This document shows positions 4,725 through 22,429 of a stretch of 24,604 nt of DNA, piece by piece (position 1 is the stretch's first letter; every line of letters starts with the position of its first letter). Source of the stretch: a virus; IMG/VR virus record IMGVR_UViG_3300037088_000213, positions 1 to 24,604 of that record. One strand, 5' to 3'. Below the pieces are notes generated by a model. The model saw only the letters and a list, made by a program, of their open reading frames with translations, was not told where the DNA came from and did no database searches. Both the position numbers and the translations under genes were made by a program.

Positions 4725-6554
4725 TTAGATTAAGTAACCATGTGTATCAGTAACTTTAATACTCATGTATTGTTTTTCTGGGAAGAAACCGATATCAGAT
4801 ACTGCGTATCTTGAACGGATTAACATTCTTGGTGCCCATGTTGCTTCACTGATTAAACTGATAGACTGTGCCATCAAATAAGGAATGAAAACAAGACCCG
4901 GCTGGTCAATTGTGTTCTTTCTTCCTACGAAGATTTGATTGTCATCCCATCTCATGTAAGGATCTACATAAATTTGGATGTTACCGATGTTACCCATTGG
5001 GTATAACTGACCGTTGGTGTTTAATTTACCAACATTGGTTGGGTTAAGTGTGTAACCAGCGATATCTTGTAATACGGAAGCGATGTTACCGTTTGTTACT
5101 AAATATTGAGCTGGTCCAATTCTACCATCAGTAGCGATGAAGTTAGAAGCGTTGTTGATCTTGGCAACTAACTTTCTTTGAATTGTGTGGGTTGTTTCAC
5201 CACCCGGTGCGTAACCAGTTGCTGACAAGTAGGTATCAACATTGAAGTCAAATTTACTTGTTCCGTCTGCGTTCTTTGGACAGGTGTTTGAAATTCTGTT
5301 CTTAGCTGCCAAACTTCTGATCTTAGCTACGATTTCTTTTGAAATAACCTGAGTTAATTCATTGATAAGAACACCTTCCAATTTCTGAACGATGTCCATT
5401 CCAGTAGCGGCTTTAATATCCTCAATTTGAGTTCTCTTTAAAGCTGAACTGATTTCGATGTCACCAACGGTAACAACTTTTGTGAATACGTCAGGACCAA
5501 TAACACCCGGATAGGTCTTTTCATCCTGATATCTGTTCATTGCACCACCACCGTTTGACTTGTAGTTATCTCTGTCTGCGGCTGCTTGAGCTGACCATGC
5601 ATCTTCGAAACCATTTTGTCCTGCTGAAAATCCCGGTAATTGATCTTCCAATAAGGAAACCAATGTGATTGTGGCACCAGTGATATAACTTGTCCAAGTT
5701 GGAACAACTGATGTAGTTGTACCTGAAGCGTAGACGAAACCACCGATTAAAGTAGTTGTCATGGCTGTAGTTTGGTCAAATGTATTCTTAGCTGCTGTCC
5801 AAGCTGAACCATCTTGTGGTAATACTGGACCAACTGAGAAACCAGCTTGACGATAACATCTGAAAATTGGTAATCCATCAATTCTGGAGAATCCTAAGAA
5901 TTCCAACCAGTTTACTTTTGATGCTGTTCCCGGACCACTTATTAAGGTTTTACCACTACCACCAAAGGTTGTGTCACTACCTAAATAAACCCAAGTTCTC
6001 TTATCAATTCCACCAATTCTTTCTTGAATCTGATAAACACCTAATTGCCATTTCAAATCAGCGATGATAGCTGCTGTAATAGTAGCTGCTGTTGCACCAC
6101 CACCTTGTAATTTGAAAACCAATGGTCTTTGTTCAGCTTCTTGATCTTCACGAGATCCATCACCATAAGCATTATCGTATTTGAAATCTACGAATAACAA
6201 CTCAATTCTTGGAGAAGCGGTTGGTTTTACAGCTACTAAATCTAAACCGATTGTTTGAGCTGCGATCTTCATTGATACTGGAAGTAAATTCTGTGCAACA
6301 TCACCACTACCGATGTTACCAGCACCTGCTTGCCATACTGAAGATGGGATAGTTCCAACTGTTGGAGCTAAAATGTTACCCATACCGTTTTGGTTAAGGT
6401 TGACATATGCCACGTTTTCATTGATATGAAGCTGGTGCATTTCAGCGTATTCGGCCATCCATTCTCTTTTTTCTTCGTCCTTTACTTTTAAGGCTTCGAG
6501 GATTGGTGTCCATTTCTTTAAAGCTTTTGCTTTGTCTACTATAAAGTGTGTCAT
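4725..6554 (-). CDS. 23: Major capsid protein, T4 gp23-like
   Basis: 609 residues, longer than the roughly 520 of T4 gp23. The gp23 core is recognised in SMKIAAQTIGLDLVAVKP followed by a VDFKYDN strand, in VKTVK-like VTVGDIEISSALKRTQIEDIKAATGMDIVQKLEG (about 364-397), and in the C-terminal QYMSIKVTDTHGYLI. Place in the head block after portal and protease also fits gp23. The N-terminal part is helical and charged, and I44-N45-E46 (in HINENVAYV) matches the (L/I)-x-E cleavage rule of gp21-type proteases, suggesting removal of a 46-residue leader during maturation. Glycine- and threonine-rich stretches around 255-300 are probably surface insertions. Base composition is less AT-rich than neighbours, as expected of the most expressed gene. 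A promoter motif ends 25 bases upstream and a terminator follows. Confidence 0.93.
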   Translation of the reverse strand: MTHFIVDKAKALKKWTPILEALKVKDEEKREWMAEYAEMHQLHINENVAYVNLNQNGMGNILAPTVGTIPSSVWQAGAGNIGSGDVAQNLLPVSMKIAAQTIGLDLVAVKPTASPRIELLFVDFKYDNAYGDGSREDQEAEQRPLVFKLQGGGATAATITAAIIADLKWQLGVYQIQERIGGIDKRTWVYLGSDTTFGGSGKTLISGPGTASKVNWLEFLGFSRIDGLPIFRCYRQAGFSVGPVLPQDGSAWTAAKNTFDQTTAMTTTLIGGFVYASGTTTSVVPTWTSYITGATITLVSLLEDQLPGFSAGQNGFEDAWSAQAAADRDNYKSNGGGAMNRYQDEKTYPGVIGPDVFTKVVTVGDIEISSALKRTQIEDIKAATGMDIVQKLEGVLINELTQVISKEIVAKIRSLAAKNRISNTCPKNADGTSKFDFNVDTYLSATGYAPGGETTHTIQRKLVAKINNASNFIATDGRIGPAQYLVTNGNIASVLQDIAGYTLNPTNVGKLNTNGQLYPMGNIGNIQIYVDPYMRWDDNQIFVGRKNTIDQPGLVFIPYLMAQSISLISEATWAPRMLIRSRYAVSDIGFFPEKQYMSIKVTDTHGYLI

Positions 6555-6658: not shown

Positions 6659-9115
6659 TTAGTATCTGTTAAGAACATTTTTCATATGCTCAACTTGTTC
6701 ATCAGAAAGTGAATAATTATCGTATGTATTTATGTTTTCATTCAATACTTTCTTTCCTGTGTTAGCTTGTGCATATTGTAGAAGATCTCTGGTTAACCAG
6801 AATGATTCTACTTTTTTCTCCGTAGTTAAGTCAGTATAGAATTGTGCTGTATCTAAAATACTTTCTTGTACTTTCGGATTTAATTTTTCCCAAATTGGCT
6901 GTAAGTCACTTGGAATATTTTCAACCAATGTTTCATTTAATGATCTGGTTGGTTTGAACAATGCTTTCTGCATTAATATAAGAACATCACTTTCGTTTGA
7001 ATAATTTCCCTTGTTTTCGTTCATGACAAAGTTTACTTTTTCCTTATCTTCTGGAGTTAAACCATAATAAGCGGCTTTCTTCTTTTCAGGTAAGAATAAT
7101 AAGAAGTGAGGATCTTCTGTCTTAGCGGCTTCGCGTTTTTTAGCGGCTTCGATGAGTTTCTTTATGTCTTTTGTTATCTGATTCGTATTTTCGTAAATTT
7201 TGGTTGTACCTAAAATTGTAAGTCTACTTTCTTCGACTTCAACTTCTTCGCCAGTATCTCCCATTTTTACAACTACAATTTTTGTAGTATCATCTGTTGC
7301 GAGAACTTCACCTGTACGAGTTGGTTCTTCAGTAGCTCCTTCAGTACCTTCTGGTTGTGCTGTTTCTTCATCTTTATCTCCCTTAACAGTAACAATCATA
7401 CCCGGAGTAATACCTAAACCTGTTTCTTCTTGTGGTGGAACTTCCTCAGTATTTACACCTTCAGCATCCTGAGCTGGTGTTTCTTCTACTGGTGGTGTTT
7501 CACCTTGTACTGGTGCTTCCTGAGCTGGTTTTTCTTCAGCTGGAGGTGTTTCCTGAGCCGGTTCTTCAACCTTAGGTTCTTCTGTTGCACCATCTGCTGG
7601 TTTTTCTTCTGGTTTATCTTCATAATAATTTGAAGGATCATCAGTTGTCATATCACCAATGGCTTCAGTAACACCTAATTTCTCAACAACTCTCTTTGTG
7701 TAGTCAATGTGTCTATCAATGACTTCTGCTTCATATTTTTGATAAGCGATAGAATCGGTAAGATTTTCAGCCAACATTTCTGAATAACGGATACCGTTAT
7801 CAGTTTGTTCTGCTACATATTCACCATATCTGATAGCGTTATCTACATGCTCGGCGATGTATTGAGTATAATCAACAATCTTTTCTGCACTTTCACTGAT
7901 GTAATCGGCGTAATCAACAAGATTGTCAACCGTTTCGGCTACATATTCAGCGTACATAATGTTCTTATCGAGATGTTCTGCGATATAATCAGCGTAATCA
8001 GCTATCTTATCAAAGTTTTCAGCGATGTATTCACTATATTTAATAGTGTTTTCAGTCTGTTCAGCTACATATTCGATAAAACTAATACCGTTATCTAACT
8101 TTTCAGCGATGTATTTTTGATAATCAATAACTTGGTCGGTTGTACCTGCTAAATAATCAATATAACCAATTGTTTTTTCGACTGCTTCTGCGATGTGGTC
8201 GTTGTGTTCGATAATGAGTTTTGTTTTTTCTTTGTTTTTCTCAACTCTTTCTTCCAGTTTGTCGTTTGTTTTCTTCAACTGTTTGTTTTCTTGAACTAAA
8301 ACATTAATCGCGTCTGCTATCTGATCAAGATATTCGGCCATTCTTTTTTGACCCTCGGATAATGTTTCGAATTCTTCATAAAGGCGAGAGAGTTTTTCCG
8401 GATCGAAATTCTTTGAATTAAGAGTTTCTTCAATGGAATTTTTTGTTTTCAATAACTCACTGTCTAAATAGGATTTGAACTCTTCCAATTTTGTCTGAGT
8501 TCCAATTTCGTTTTTTTCCATATTGAACAATTCATTTATTTTTGACTCCTCAGATATATCGAATATCCTGAAGTTTAAATTTTCATTGAATCCCAATGAT
8601 TCATTCATGTTTTTCAATTCCATTCGGGCTGAACTAAATCCGGGGTCTGCAACACAATCATAGGTGAATAACTTTTTAATTGTTACTTCACCATTCGATT
8701 CTGTTACACCGGCAGCTCTACTGGAAACGAAAATAGGTAGGTCATCATCTACAAGAGCTTGTGCTTCCTTTCCATAAAAGGTATTAGTTAATTTAATTTC
8801 TCCATCAACTCTATTGGTTTCCTTTATAAACCAAGCATTTTGAATTGTATGAGAAATACGAGTTAAGCTAGTATCAAATACATCTGGATGATCAAACTCT
8901 CCATAGACAACTTTTAACAGTTTTTTTCTTTCTAATAATTCACTAAGATGGGGTAAGAATTTCTCTGCGGTGTAAATCCTGTCATTTCTATTTCTAATAT
9001 TGAATTCTGTAAAAATACCCTTCATGATATATAGGATATTACCCTTACTACTTACGACCTCATTGATTTTCTCCAGACCACCCAATGTATTATCAATTAT
9101 TATTACATTTTTCAT
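6659..9115 (-). CDS. 21: Prohead protease fused to scaffold-like region (gp21/gp22 type)
   Basis: 818 residues, about four times T4 gp21. Residues 1-170 are the protease: GIFTEFNIRNRNDRIYTAEKF, GEFDHPDVF with catalytic H76, ISHTIQNAWF, and IFVSSRAAGVTE holding the serine (S131 or S132), then YDCVADPGFSS with D153 or D157 as third residue candidates. Residues 200-300 are helical and charged. Residues 302-483 hold 13 uninterrupted 14-residue repeats. Residues 492-566 form a Pro/Glu linker, 567-636 look like an SH3/KOW-like barrel (GMIVTVKGD...GEVLATDDTTKIVVVKMG), and 645-818 a helical end domain. In T4 the protease cuts the scaffold inside the prohead and then itself; here both seem joined in one chain. 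No internal stop or frameshift is seen. It lies between portal and capsid genes, as genes 21 and 22 do in T4. Confidence 0.9.
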   Translation of the reverse strand: MKNVIIIDNTLGGLEKINEVVSSKGNILYIMKGIFTEFNIRNRNDRIYTAEKFLPHLSELLERKKLLKVVYGEFDHPDVFDTSLTRISHTIQNAWFIKETNRVDGEIKLTNTFYGKEAQALVDDDLPIFVSSRAAGVTESNGEVTIKKLFTYDCVADPGFSSARMELKNMNESLGFNENLNFRIFDISEESKINELFNMEKNEIGTQTKLEEFKSYLDSELLKTKNSIEETLNSKNFDPEKLSRLYEEFETLSEGQKRMAEYLDQIADAINVLVQENKQLKKTNDKLEERVEKNKEKTKLIIEHNDHIAEAVEKTIGYIDYLAGTTDQVIDYQKYIAEKLDNGISFIEYVAEQTENTIKYSEYIAENFDKIADYADYIAEHLDKNIMYAEYVAETVDNLVDYADYISESAEKIVDYTQYIAEHVDNAIRYGEYVAEQTDNGIRYSEMLAENLTDSIAYQKYEAEVIDRHIDYTKRVVEKLGVTEAIGDMTTDDPSNYYEDKPEEKPADGATEEPKVEEPAQETPPAEEKPAQEAPVQGETPPVEETPAQDAEGVNTEEVPPQEETGLGITPGMIVTVKGDKDEETAQPEGTEGATEEPTRTGEVLATDDTTKIVVVKMGDTGEEVEVEESRLTILGTTKIYENTNQITKDIKKLIEAAKKREAAKTEDPHFLLFLPEKKKAAYYGLTPEDKEKVNFVMNENKGNYSNESDVLILMQKALFKPTRSLNETLVENIPSDLQPIWEKLNPKVQESILDTAQFYTDLTTEKKVESFWLTRDLLQYAQANTGKKVLNENINTYDNYSLSDEQVEHMKNVLNRY
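7667..8212 (-). repeat. Thirteen 14-residue (42-base) coding repeats in scaffold region
   Basis: Within the protease-scaffold gene, units begin at residues 302, 316, 330 and so on to 470, with no insertion or deletion. The pattern is I/V-x-Y-x-x-Y-I/V-A-E-x-x-D/E-x-x. Fourteen residues equal two heptads, so a long coiled-coil rod is expected. The DNA copies are diverged, so the repeat is kept by selection on protein and not by recent duplication. Confidence 0.9.
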
Positions 9116-9232: not shown

Positions 9233-9577
9233 ATGCTAATTTCAAAGATTGTTCAGATTGTAATTACGAAAAGAAATATCGGATTTTTTCGTAAAAAAGG
9301 ATACGATGCTGAAATGATGGATACCCTTAGTGTATTTGTGGGAGATTTACCCGAAAATAGTCATTGTGAAGTTGATGTTTCTTGTGATAATTGTAAAAAA
9401 ATTAGAAAAATGAAATATTTTGAGTATAAAAGATATGGTGATAAATATATGTGTAGACAATGTTCGGAAGGTAAAAGGCAAGAAACAAGCATGAAAAATT
9501 GGGGGGTTGATAATCCCTCCAAGAGTGATATAATAAAACAAAAGATAAGTGATACCTTAAAAAAATTAAAATCTTAG
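9233..9577 (+). CDS. Orphan homing-endonuclease-like zinc-binding protein (114 aa)
   Basis: The only plus-strand gene inside the head block. It has a likely zinc ribbon, C51-x2-C54 and C74-x2-C77, in VDVSCDNCKKIRKMKYFEYKRYGDKYMCRQC. After it comes TSMKNWGVDNPSKSDIIKQKISDTLKK, resembling the T-x-x-K-x-(Y/W)-G-V-x-N-P-S unit that recurs in the DNA-binding parts of phage homing-endonuclease-like proteins. No HNH or GIY-YIG nuclease motif is present, so this is either a remnant, a stand-alone DNA-binding protein, or half of a split enzyme. It has its own promoter motif, and its stop codon overlaps the portal stop by four bases. It lies where T4 carries genes 67 and 68. Confidence 0.72.
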   Translation: MLISKIVQIVITKRNIGFFRKKGYDAEMMDTLSVFVGDLPENSHCEVDVSCDNCKKIRKMKYFEYKRYGDKYMCRQCSEGKRQETSMKNWGVDNPSKSDIIKQKISDTLKKLKS

Positions 9578-11388
9578 ATAGTGGGTGTTTGTCCACCACC
9601 TTGTCCTTGTCCACCGGCCTGACCACCTCCACCCTGAGGTCCACCAGCTGGGCCACCCTGAGGAACACCACCTTGCGGTGCACCACCCTGAGGACCACCA
9701 ACACCACCTTGCGGTGCACCACCCTGAGGACCACCAACACCACCTTGAGCACCACCTTCAGGGGCACCACCTTCAGGAGGCGGAATTTCTCCACCACCAC
9801 CCGGACCACCACCACCCGGCTCTTCTGGTGGATTTAATCCCTGCTCTAGCATAAATTTCTTTCGTTCTATCATTTTATATTTCTCATTTTCTTCAATATC
9901 TTTATCAGTGAATTTCATGATATTACGGGCTATCCATTCAACACTTAAATATGGTTTATCTCCCATATCTCTTAAATTACTGGATAGATTGGCTGCTATT
10001 GATGCCCTTTTATCTAAGTTGGCTAAATATTTCCATTCTTCAAATAACACATCAGAATTAAACATTAACTTCATAGAGTTAAAGAATACAACATCTTTCT
10101 TTAATTCTGGAAAATTCAAAATCATTTGAATTCTCAAAGGTTTAGTAATAATTTCTTTAAAAATGGTTCTAATACGATTGATAAAATTCTTGAACTTAAT
10201 TTCATCTCTGGTTATCTGAGTAGTTGAGTCATATAATGTACCACCACCACTTTCTTCTTCGAATCTTTGGAATGGAATTTTACTTGCTCTTTTAAAATTC
10301 TTAAAGAACCATTGTAAAGTAACATCTTCTGCTAGATTATTTTGTTCTGGTTTTACTATTTCGAATGATGGTGTTTGACCAGCACTTGATGGAAACCAGA
10401 AATCTTTTGCGTGAGGAATGTTTGTACTTCCATTCATCATAACCAATCCTAAGTGTTCATCCCATTGAACATCTTCATGGTAATCGGACATTAATTCATA
10501 AATCTGTTGTTCGGCTTGTTGACGGGATAAACCATCAACTGGAATTATAAATTTTTTGTAAAGAGAAGCTTGATTAATATTGTATAATAATTTTGCCTGT
10601 TCAATCATTTTTAATTGATTAAAAGGTCTAATAAGGTTTTCAACATAACTTGTATCACCATATTCATTATTATTAGAATATGATATGTATACAATTTGTG
10701 AATCCAATAATACTCTACGAAGTTGAGGATTATCTGGGTATTGAATCCAGATCATTGTATTGGATACTGGATCTGTAGCCACAATTAATGTTATTGGATC
10801 AAGTGGGGCCAAATCTATGATATTTTTTTGACGATCATCATAAATGATTTCATAAGCGATATAACCATCAATCAATAAACTTTTAAGATAATTCCAAGCA
10901 ACGACACCATCAATAAAATTGAATTCGTTCATTAATCTATCAAACACTTCTTGATATTTTTGTCTTGTTGTTTGGTCGTAACTATCTGGTAAATCCTTTA
11001 TATAACAAAATTTGTTATTGTCATCATATATAATACACTCATCACATATTTGAATGATGAAGTCCTTTATTTCATCTTTGATTGAATATTGTCTTAGAAT
11101 TTTTCTTTTATCTAAATATGTTCTATCTAAATAGGCTATTGATTTCTTATCGAGAAAACGAGCAATCGTTTTTTTAGTAAATAAATCATACATATTTGTA
11201 CTCTGGGGATGGTATAAAACATCACTCGTTTCTTCATGAACACCCAAGGCATAAGCATTTTTGATCTTCATATCATTATAATCAAGACCACCAAAAACAT
11301 TAGATAATCCTCTTAAAACTCTGTTGAAAATTGTCGGGTTTTGTTGGGCTGACTGTTGACTTGAATAATCACCTCTATAACTTGCCAC
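9574..11388 (-). CDS. 20: Portal protein, T4 gp20-like
   Basis: 604 residues against 524 in T4 gp20. Recognisable portal segments include FNFIDGVVAWNYLKSLLIDGYIAYEIIYDD, DLAPLDPITLIVATDP, RPFNQLKMIEQAKLLYNINQA, HAKDFWFPSSAGQTPSFEIVKPEQNNL and TTQITRDEIKFKNFINRIR, the last two close to the gp20 signatures. Twelve copies would form the vertex ring through which DNA enters and leaves the head. The start is a GTG (GTG GCA AGT TAT); no upstream in-frame ATG is seen. Residues 519-604 form an unusual Gly/Pro/Gln/Ala tail, absent from T4 gp20 to my knowledge, with an exact 12-residue duplication. The tail is GC-rich in an AT-rich genome. It is followed by convergent transcription from the orphan zinc-ribbon gene. 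Confidence 0.93.
   Translation of the reverse strand: MASYRGDYSSQQSAQQNPTIFNRVLRGLSNVFGGLDYNDMKIKNAYALGVHEETSDVLYHPQSTNMYDLFTKKTIARFLDKKSIAYLDRTYLDKRKILRQYSIKDEIKDFIIQICDECIIYDDNNKFCYIKDLPDSYDQTTRQKYQEVFDRLMNEFNFIDGVVAWNYLKSLLIDGYIAYEIIYDDRQKNIIDLAPLDPITLIVATDPVSNTMIWIQYPDNPQLRRVLLDSQIVYISYSNNNEYGDTSYVENLIRPFNQLKMIEQAKLLYNINQASLYKKFIIPVDGLSRQQAEQQIYELMSDYHEDVQWDEHLGLVMMNGSTNIPHAKDFWFPSSAGQTPSFEIVKPEQNNLAEDVTLQWFFKNFKRASKIPFQRFEEESGGGTLYDSTTQITRDEIKFKNFINRIRTIFKEIITKPLRIQMILNFPELKKDVVFFNSMKLMFNSDVLFEEWKYLANLDKRASIAANLSSNLRDMGDKPYLSVEWIARNIMKFTDKDIEENEKYKMIERKKFMLEQGLNPPEEPGGGGPGGGGEIPPPEGGAPEGGAQGGVGGPQGGAPQGGVGGPQGGAPQGGVPQGGPAGGPQGGGGQAGGQGQGGGQTPTI
9668..9739 (-). repeat. Exact 36-base tandem duplication in portal tail
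   Basis: Two identical adjacent 36-base units (9668-9703 and 9704-9739) each encode GGVGGPQGGAPQ in the portal's C-terminal tail, and a partial third follows. Exact identity at silent sites implies recent duplication, so length may vary between isolates or be misassembled. Confidence 0.9.
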
Positions 11389-20385: not shown

Positions 20386-21492
20386 ATGATATATAATATA
20401 CAAAATCAAATTGACTTATCAGGATTCTACATTGTCTATAATGGTGTTGTCGTAAATGAAAAAGAGGGAACTTATGGAATATCTCATTTAATAGAACATT
20501 TAGTATGTAAAAACTTGAATGATGAATTTGTGGATTCATTAGAAAAAAACGGTATAACTTGGAATGCTTATACAACACCGAATAATATAGTTTTCTATAT
20601 CAAAGGTTTAGATGATTATGTTTATAATTTCAAAAATGAATTTCTTCAAAAAATCACAAACTTCAAAATAACTCCTGATGTTTTTAAAATAGAAAAAAAT
20701 GTGGTTTTAGAGGAATATACCGACTTATTCAATAGGTATAATAAAAATCATTTTCTCAATTTATATAGAAAAGTACTAAACAACTATAATTCAGTTGGGA
20801 AAAAAGAGGACATAGAACAATTAACAATGGAAAAATGCTTAGAACATTATTCGCAGTTTTATAGTAATCCATCTAAAATAATATACATATCAAAGAAATA
20901 TAAAGAAGAAACAACAAATATAACCTTTGATGATAAGTCAAGTAAAAAAACTTTTAAATTAGGAACATATGATTATACCTTAGAAACTCCTTTATTATCT
21001 GGAAATAAATCTTCTATTATTTACCTTTCTCCAATAATAAATGAAGATTTCGATAAGATAATATTCATCAACTATCTTCTATCTGGAGGATTAAAATCTC
21101 CGTTATATAAAGCAATTAGAGAAAAAAATAGTTTGGCTTATTATATCAACTGTCGTATTGATCGTCTGGATGATAAAGGAATCATAATTATTTCAACCGA
21201 AACGAGCGATGTTAATGTGGAAAAATTAAATGAAACTATAATCAATGTTTTTAAAGAAAGATCCTATTTAACCAGAGAAAAATTTGAAAGTGTAAAAAAT
21301 TTCATTAAAATCAGTTTGATAAAATCGAATATTAACTTACAAGACAATGAAGATAAATTCATTCTCCCCCAGAATTGGCTTATAGAAGATACAATCGACA
21401 AGTTAACTTATGAGGATATTATGGTGGCTTTTGATAAATATTTCAACATCAATGACTTCTATAAAAGTGTAAATAAAAATGAATTTTCTTAA
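20386..21492 (+). CDS. M16 family zinc metallopeptidase (insulinase/pitrilysin type)
   Basis: 368 residues with both M16 halves. H34-L-I-E37-H38 is the inverted zinc motif HxxEH; E110 in EKNVVLEEYTD is the third zinc ligand and E103 the second conserved glutamate, giving HxxEH-x71-E, slightly shorter than the usual x76. NAYTT (60-64) fits the substrate-edge strand. The C-terminal half (about 208-330) has LSGGLKSPLYKAIREKNSLAYYI, with R245 and Y252/Y253 as the R/Y pair that holds substrate. Members cut peptides inside a closed chamber formed by two or four such halves; a protein of this size should work as a dimer. It lacks the first strand of cellular forms and has no signal peptide, so a cytoplasmic or virion site is likely. 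It is divergent from the adhesins. Its substrate is unknown. Confidence 0.92.
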   Translation: MIYNIQNQIDLSGFYIVYNGVVVNEKEGTYGISHLIEHLVCKNLNDEFVDSLEKNGITWNAYTTPNNIVFYIKGLDDYVYNFKNEFLQKITNFKITPDVFKIEKNVVLEEYTDLFNRYNKNHFLNLYRKVLNNYNSVGKKEDIEQLTMEKCLEHYSQFYSNPSKIIYISKKYKEETTNITFDDKSSKKTFKLGTYDYTLETPLLSGNKSSIIYLSPIINEDFDKIIFINYLLSGGLKSPLYKAIREKNSLAYYINCRIDRLDDKGIIIISTETSDVNVEKLNETIINVFKERSYLTREKFESVKNFIKISLIKSNINLQDNEDKFILPQNWLIEDTIDKLTYEDIMVAFDKYFNINDFYKSVNKNEFS

Positions 21493-21904: not shown

Positions 21905-22429
21905 ATGAACAAAAACAACAGAGAAAAAACAGAAAAAATCAATCATCAAATTACATCTCATTCAGTTAGACTAATATTTACAGATGGAACTCAACCATAT
22001 GTAACCACAACAACGGAAGCTTTACAATTGTCGAAAGACTTGGGTGTGGATCTAATTGAAATTTCACCAACAGCAAACCCACCAGTTTGTAAAATGATGG
22101 ATTACAATAAGTTCCTTTACGAAAAGAAACAAAAAGACAAAGAAAATCAGAAAAACAATAAAAAAATAAAATTGAAAGAGATCCGTATGACTTATAATAC
22201 GGGAGAACATGATTTCAATTTTAAATTAAATCATGCCATCAATTTTCTCAACGATGGTGATAAAGTTAAAGCCTTTATATTTTTCGCTGGCCGAGAGCTA
22301 AAATTCAAAGAAATCGGGGAATTATTATTGTTGAAATTCGTTGATGGACTTAAAGAAGTCGGAAAAATTGAAAATATGCCTAAACTGGATGGTAACAGAT
22401 TGTGGGTCATAATCCAACCGAAAAAATAA
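21905..22429 (+). CDS. infC: Translation initiation factor IF-3 homologue
   Basis: 174 residues, full length for IF-3. The N-domain (about 12-81) has INHQITSHSVRLIFTDGTQ, EALQLSKDLGVDLIEISPTANPPVCKMMDYNKFLYEKKQK. A lysine linker follows (82-90), then the C-domain (91-173) with KEIRMTYNTGEHDFNFKLNHAINFLNDGDKVKAFIFFAGRELKFKEIGELLLLKFVDGLKEVGKIENMPKLDGNRLWVII. IF-3 binds the 30S subunit, keeps subunits apart and checks the initiator tRNA and start codon. The C-domain wording is close to Bacteroidota IF-3. Two conserved basic positions differ: (R/K)GR is AGR at 128-130, and EGR is DGN at 162-164. The start is ATG, not the AUU of many cellular infC genes. It is driven by a host-type promoter, so early or constitutive expression is likely. 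Confidence 0.95.
   Translation: MNKNNREKTEKINHQITSHSVRLIFTDGTQPYVTTTTEALQLSKDLGVDLIEISPTANPPVCKMMDYNKFLYEKKQKDKENQKNNKKIKLKEIRMTYNTGEHDFNFKLNHAINFLNDGDKVKAFIFFAGRELKFKEIGELLLLKFVDGLKEVGKIENMPKLDGNRLWVIIQPKK

Follow-up and report, generated by a model that had tools for sequence, protein, structure and literature searches.

How a phage that encodes its prohead protease and a candidate scaffold in one reading frame could assemble and empty its head is the question raised by a 24.6-kb viral fragment (24,604 nucleotides, hereafter the window). It contains an 818-aa ORF with an ATG start (6659..9115, on the minus strand, as are all features of the head locus given below), which sits between the upstream gene of the portal protein (gp20; 9574..11388; Pfam Portal_T4, E 1.5e-64) and the downstream gene of the major capsid protein (Gp23, the expected protease substrate; 4725..6554; Pfam Gp23, E 1.4e-27). 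No other gene lies on this strand between the two, and the sole ORF of note in the interval between portal and fusion is small and on the opposite strand. The fusion ORF occupies the place of T4 genes 21 and 22. It is probably a head-assembly core gene of a Mahaphage-type huge phage, in which a gp21-type protease is fused to an internal scaffold.

The preliminary description of the locus had proposed a prohead protease and a scaffold joined in one chain. The protease call is borne out by the N-terminal part of the ORF (residues about 20-169; 8609..9058), which matches the phrog_207 head maturation protease profile (E 8e-25) and whose predicted model has T4 gp21 chains as its top three PDB matches (Foldseek 5jbl, E 1.9e-5); the Pfam S77 score of the ORF is 23.9 bits, slightly below the cut-off of 27. 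The candidate catalytic residues His76, Ser132 and Asp153 align with T4 His85, Ser140 and Asp168, and the motifs that carry the candidate His and Ser, GEFDHP and VSSR, are invariant in 69 relatives. The domain shares with T4 gp21 the fold, the catalytic residues, a Glu at P1 with I/L at P3, and candidate N- and C-terminal self-cleavage sites at matching places. It differs in being fused to a scaffold candidate, whereas gp21 and gp22 are separate genes in T4 (PMC9958956).

The remainder of the chain is composite. A helical neck (residues 239-301; 8213..8401), part of a helix that AlphaFold predicts at 239-381, leads into an array of 14-residue repeats, which is followed by an acidic Pro/Glu-rich linker (residues 495-570; 7406..7633; pLDDT about 30). 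Residues 574-636 (7208..7396) form a small Tudor/KOW-like beta domain, assigned from its strands and from its resemblance in Foldseek (E about 0.01) to Tudor/KOW/SH3-like folds; this domain is missing from the 642-kb group (alignment gap). The conserved C-terminal helical domain of the AlphaFold model (residues 640-783; 6767..7198) was seen, within the phage collection, only in huge-phage records. The protein closes with an LNE↓N site (residues 791-793; the arrow marks the candidate cut) and a 25-residue tail with a terminal helix at 805-817 (6662..6745).

In the phage collection the best-matching records are phage genomes of 735, 642, 636 and 635 kb; these have been assigned to the Mahaphage clade, with hosts predicted to be Bacteroidetes (PMC7162821). 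A protein identical to the fusion is encoded on a 110-kb IMG/VR contig, and scanning IMG/VR with a profile brought up at least 565 relatives, 80 of which were kept. The comparison set, made of IMG/VR relatives and named genomes, comprised 69 nonredundant full-length ORFs, and in all 69 the protease and the scaffold candidate are kept in a single ORF. In the Lak phage the fusion is present and the array is missing. Protease and scaffold/core genes are separate in T4, PAU, GAP32, Eneladusvirus, phiM7, HTVC008M, OC and UB. In the literature searched, to which subscription journals mostly did not belong, there was no report of the fusion or of tags like the T4 capsid-targeting sequence (CTS) in Mahaphages. 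The cultured Flavobacterium phage MaF61 encodes a 1,404-aa protease fusion with many LNE triplets (L021 4821-9035) and might serve as a model system.

Residues 302-483 (7667..8212) split without gaps into 13 units of 14 residues, in order IEHNDHIAEAVEKT, IGYIDYLAGTTDQV, IDYQKYIAEKLDNG, ISFIEYVAEQTENT, IKYSEYIAENFDKI, ADYADYIAEHLDKN, IMYAEYVAETVDNL, VDYADYISESAEKI, VDYTQYIAEHVDNA, IRYGEYVAEQTDNG, IRYSEMLAENLTDS, IAYQKYEAEVIDRH and IDYTKRVVEKLGVT. The chained-unit score was 318, as compared to a maximum of 27 in 50 shuffles, the array has identity peaks at lags of 14, 28, 42 and 56, and a chance origin is excluded. The strict triplet (I/L)xE occurs in seven of the 13 units, ending at residues 310, 338, 366, 380, 408, 422 and 450, and VxE in four, ending at residues 352, 394, 436 and 478; the remaining two units read LAG and EAE. 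The counts of the preliminary description (11/13 for [I/L/V]xE, 7/13 for the strict form) were thus correct. It had called the repeats exact, which is true of their length and not of their sequence, the first and the last two or three units being degenerate. The 14-residue unit is also found outside the fusion: a 210-aa GSG-rich protein with WSNGTW-like segments has three copies of it (L027 752-1384, corresponding to LR756501 near 619,752-620,383), and an 87-aa ORF in LR745206 (L028) has several more.

The protease-like site that the same description had noticed in the units contains their best conserved residue. Over 822 units from the 69 relatives the consensus is I-x-Y-S-E-Y-[IL]-A-E-N-L-D-K-N, and position 9, the putative P1 residue, is Glu in 812 and Asp in none, as compared to the mixture found at other acidic positions (617 Glu and 75 Asp at position 5; 623 Asp and 116 Glu at position 12). 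Ala8, Tyr3 and Tyr6 are nearly as conserved. Sites of the (I/L)xE type occur outside the array as well. Their density in the arrays is 5.96 per 100 aa, the same as in T4 gp22, which has 16 of them over its 269 aa (5.8 expected) with no periodicity, and their excess over shuffled composition is 2.3-fold in the arrays and 2.4-fold in the helix. The predicted rod reappeared in the AlphaFold model, built on an alignment of the window and IMG/VR loci only, as a near-continuous helix (239-479, with one short break), at a weak to modest confidence over the array (pLDDT about 37-60). The fusion, the array and the conservation of the sites are solid observations.

Candidate cut sites of the same type flank the protease. 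At the N-terminus KINE↓V (residues 17-19; 9059..9067) has Glu19 conserved in 64 of 69 relatives, with L, I or V at P3 in most; a loss of nine N-terminal residues is reported for T4 gp21 (PMC9958956), whose sequence reads LIE↓T at that site. A candidate site for the release of the protease from the scaffold, MNE↓S (residues 170-173; 8597..8608), follows the family pattern [LIMV]NE↓S, with N171 and E172 each in 69/69 and S173 in 67/69 relatives. A Glu with S, G or A as the next residue is found at the end of the protease domain also in T4 (ITE↓S), PAU (LME↓S), HTVC008M (VME↓G) and Lak (INE↓S), as well as in GAP32, phiM7, OC, PAC2 and UB. In the capsid protein a candidate site INE↓N (residues 44-46; 6417..6425) belongs to a pattern [ILM]xE↓N at residues 43-46, which was matched in 58 of 66 relatives, INE↓N being readable in the other eight. 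An [IL]xE triplet lies 15-40 residues before the C-terminus of the fusion in 67/69 relatives, in a region where the background is high. Cleavage at these candidate sites of the fusion, the array and the capsid protein is predicted from their sequence pattern and its conservation.

The region behind the protease likely works as a scaffold, as its position, shape and cut-site density suggest. Like T4 gp22, it lies between a gp21-type protease and gp23, is helix-rich and is dense in (I/L)xE sites, including IAE and LAE. It differs from gp22, which is a separate gene and has no 14-residue repeat, and no homology between the two was detected by hhalign (probability 0.1-0.2%), so that the word scaffold rests on the three features just named. 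The phrog_237 profile detected no separate gp22-like gene, a negative result that is weak, since the same profile finds nothing in Sphingomonas phage PAU, whose protease and scaffold candidates are separate genes.

Two other readings of the array bear on this assignment. The true scaffold might be another gene, and the array a targeting tail that brings the protease into the core, as in SPN3US, whose protease gp245 cuts off its own C-terminus after a Glu, the region so lost being inferred to target the enzyme (PMC5694885). The missing gp22 homology and the insensitivity of phrog_237 agree with such a tail. However, the 600-residue, mostly helical region, in the place of gp22 and with a gp22-like site density, far exceeds the size of a tail, and the portal-capsid interval offers no other same-strand gene; we regard this reading as quite unlikely. 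The giant-phage enzymes SPN3US gp245 and phiKZ gp175 (MEROPS S80) resemble the present protease in C-terminal autocleavage after Glu (PMC5694885), a candidate event here, and gp245 differs in its size (263 residues), its AxE motif and the absence of a fused scaffold. Alternatively, the array might be a structural rod only, a spacer or a set-length ruler whose I-x-E triplets serve helix packing and are left uncut. Its unit number is narrow (11-14 in 66 of 69 relatives) despite sequence divergence, the predicted helix is near-continuous, a usable site is missing from two units of the window and P3 is V in four, and the strong conservation of Ala8, Tyr3 and Tyr6 would also suit a rod. On the other hand, the invariance of Glu9, which tops that of the other charged positions and never admits Asp, fits a protease P1 residue better than a generic salt bridge, the same Glu grammar is fixed in the capsid protein, at the protease N-terminus and at the junction, and T4 gp22 reaches an equal site density without any periodicity. 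An uncut rod appears unlikely to us.

The preliminary description had reasoned that a fusion would fix the protease to scaffold ratio at one to one, and that this would need a new way of timing. A single fused product would indeed be far from the T4 dosage, given that T4 uses about 580 copies of gp22 and 55 of gp21 (PMC9958956). The fixed ratio is doubtful, in view of a candidate internal start at Met199 (8519..8521) and of a conserved nucleotide element upstream of it. Starting at Met199, which is conserved in 68 of 69 relatives, translation would give a 620-aa scaffold-only product. The sequence upstream has an A content of 0.63 (0.54-0.78 at real starts and 0.37 at other internal Mets), a richness that is partly a consequence of the encoded amino acids, and Met199 is best or equal best by this measure within its ORF in most of 68 ORFs; its context is A-rich and weakly structured, like that of the real starts of these phages. 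A Shine-Dalgarno sequence was found at Met199 in 0/68, at fusion starts in 0/69, at capsid starts in 0/66 and at the starts of CTS-like leader genes in 5/56; its absence at Met199 is uninformative, because the real fusion and capsid starts are without it as well.

The element covers 45 nt at codons 181-195 (8531..8575) and is the stretch where synonymous sites of the gene are most strongly constrained, with z values of 9-27 for codons 181-193 as compared to about 0.5 over most of the gene; Glu190, for example, is GAG in 77% of sequences vs. a 20% usage. It reads AACTTtAGGATATaTGAaATGTCCgATGAGTCAAAAATwAATGA, ending just before Met199. It can fold as a hairpin, ACUU..GGAUAU/AURUCC..GAGU, followed by an A-rich segment (RNAalifold); covariation support for the hairpin did not exceed that of shuffles, and Rfam gave no match within the window. 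A few relatives lack the element, and some (L164, L175, L182, L158 and L155) lose most of its wobble bases together, as though it were either wholly there or wholly missing. Some other sources of the constraint were considered and set aside. An overlapping forward ORF is precluded by stops in both other frames in nearly all 68 sequences (one reverse frame over the stretch is open in 47/68); a TATATA-type promoter, a motif enriched 20-40 nt before starts, is not conserved in the element; and for a programmed frameshift at TCAAAAAT the slippery pairing is poor and shifted-frame stops are not universal. A second, weaker codon conservation was observed at residues 651-700 (about 7016-7165), with N699 as AAC in 91% and further cases at R661, F671 and F674.

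There might still be a single full-length product, with Met199 structural and the constraint due to an operator, an RNA-processing site or a packaging signal. The element is indeed single-copy in the sequence scanned, has an inverted repeat and stands 10-54 nt before the ATG. We consider this somewhat unlikely: the element directly precedes the scaffold part, Met199 is start-like and first by A content in most of the ORFs, and T4 gene 21 itself has an essential internal start (PMC9026906). The candidate internal start probably lets the phage make the scaffold rod alone in excess. As for timing, Met199 and the candidate cut site between protease and scaffold point to the solution of herpesvirus UL26/UL26.5 rather than to a new one.

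In HSV-1, the UL26 fusion has R and M sites and a nested UL26.5, and the fusion-derived VP21 accounts for about 10% of the scaffold (PMC12474303). The present protein resembles this pair in its N-terminal protease, and would resemble it, with candidate or predicted counterparts, in a release site, a scaffold thought to be partly coiled coil, a cut site 25 residues from the C-terminus and a nested scaffold-only product (PMC12474303). We discarded the C-terminal LNE as an M-site homologue, given that 81% of background stretches carry the looser [ILVM]xE. The herpesvirus system differs in its cleavage specificity, in lacking a rod built of repeats and in its eukaryotic host. Phage lambda also has protease and scaffold in one frame, with the scaffold nested (gpC/gpNu3), and its protease family is unrelated to the gp21 type. 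The lambda C-Nu3 interaction is listed in PMC3224144. We class the locus with the T4-type protease and core, of which it is a new form; it would operate in the manner of the herpesvirus pair, to whose family it does not belong.

The repeat unit also resembles the T4 CTS. T4 IPII and IPIII start with MKTYQEFIAE; in IPIII, targeting depends on residues 4 and 7 and processing on residues 8 and 10, and an Asp in place of residue 10 stops processing and not targeting (PMC9026906). Tyr3, Tyr6, Ile/Leu7 and Glu9 of the repeat are spaced as Y4, F7, I8 and E10 of the CTS (MKTYQEFIAE↓A), that is, as its two targeting aromatics and its I and E processing residues, and the pattern [FY]xx[FY][IL]xE fits 600 of the 822 units (700 when V is allowed). 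The CTS differs in being a single N-terminal copy in T4, whereas about 12 internal tandem copies are found here and single copies open many other proteins in these phages. The pattern [FY]xx[FY][IL]xE also lies near the N-terminus, within residues 1-24, in 48 of the 953 genes of the 735-kb phage LR756501 (2.4 expected); the 110-kb contig has it there in 13 of 164 genes (0.4 expected). The CTS-like leader has the form M-K-x-[YF]-x-x-[FY]-[IL]-x-E, with A or S as a frequent next residue (LR756501 L038-L074; 110-kb contig L032-L037), and an unbiased column count at N-terminal [IL]xE sites recovered both the aromatics and the small P1' residue. A position-weight matrix trained on the leaders did not single out the array, whose units score only moderately, because the matrix favours Asn, Phe or Lys before the Glu and the repeat, like the T4 tag, has Ala. 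The leader-bearing proteins, as judged from these patterns, are likely a large set packed into the head. A CTS-like leader also opens a polyphosphate kinase 2-like protein, and an 84-aa ORF (LR756501 730457-730711, within L074) joins such a leader to a capsid-protein-like N-terminal stretch, NGNGMGNIVAPTVG.

The scaffold would accordingly be a long helical rod in which about 12 units follow one another, all with the layout of the T4 CTS: two aromatics at the core-entry positions of IPIII and then an (I/L)xE protease site. The full-length chain would bring the protease into the core, and the bulk of the rod would probably come from a second, scaffold-only protein started at Met199. On completion of the shell the protease would release itself at [LIMV]NE↓S and cleave the capsid protein at its [ILM]xE↓N site. 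It would also cut the rod, at roughly one site per unit, down to peptides of a size that can exit. Taken as a whole, the fused protease-scaffold with a nested scaffold and a cut rod is the best explanation and, in our judgement, a fairly probable one. More tentatively, and with somewhat less than even confidence, we propose that the scaffold is a CTS polymer, that internal proteins get into the head by means of their single N-terminal tag, which is one rod unit and packs on the rod, that a single cut in each unit takes the rod apart and at the same time releases the cargo, and that the nested start under the RNA element sets the dosage; tagged internal proteins would then dock as single rod units. 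This would suggest how the ten-residue targeting tag of T4 works, the tag being one scaffold unit, and would make dozens of head-packed proteins predictable from sequence alone. The locus itself offers a candidate protease-scaffold in the clade with the largest phage genomes, and with it a herpesvirus-like layout in a phage lineage among whose relatives protease and scaffold are separate genes.

Two further genes of the window, both on the plus strand, may be mentioned. An M16-type (insulinase-like) peptidase is encoded near the structural genes (20386-21492), and a phage-encoded translation initiation factor IF-3 with both domains (21905-22429; Pfam E 5e-29 and 2e-27) is of interest in phages with genes that have no Shine-Dalgarno sites.
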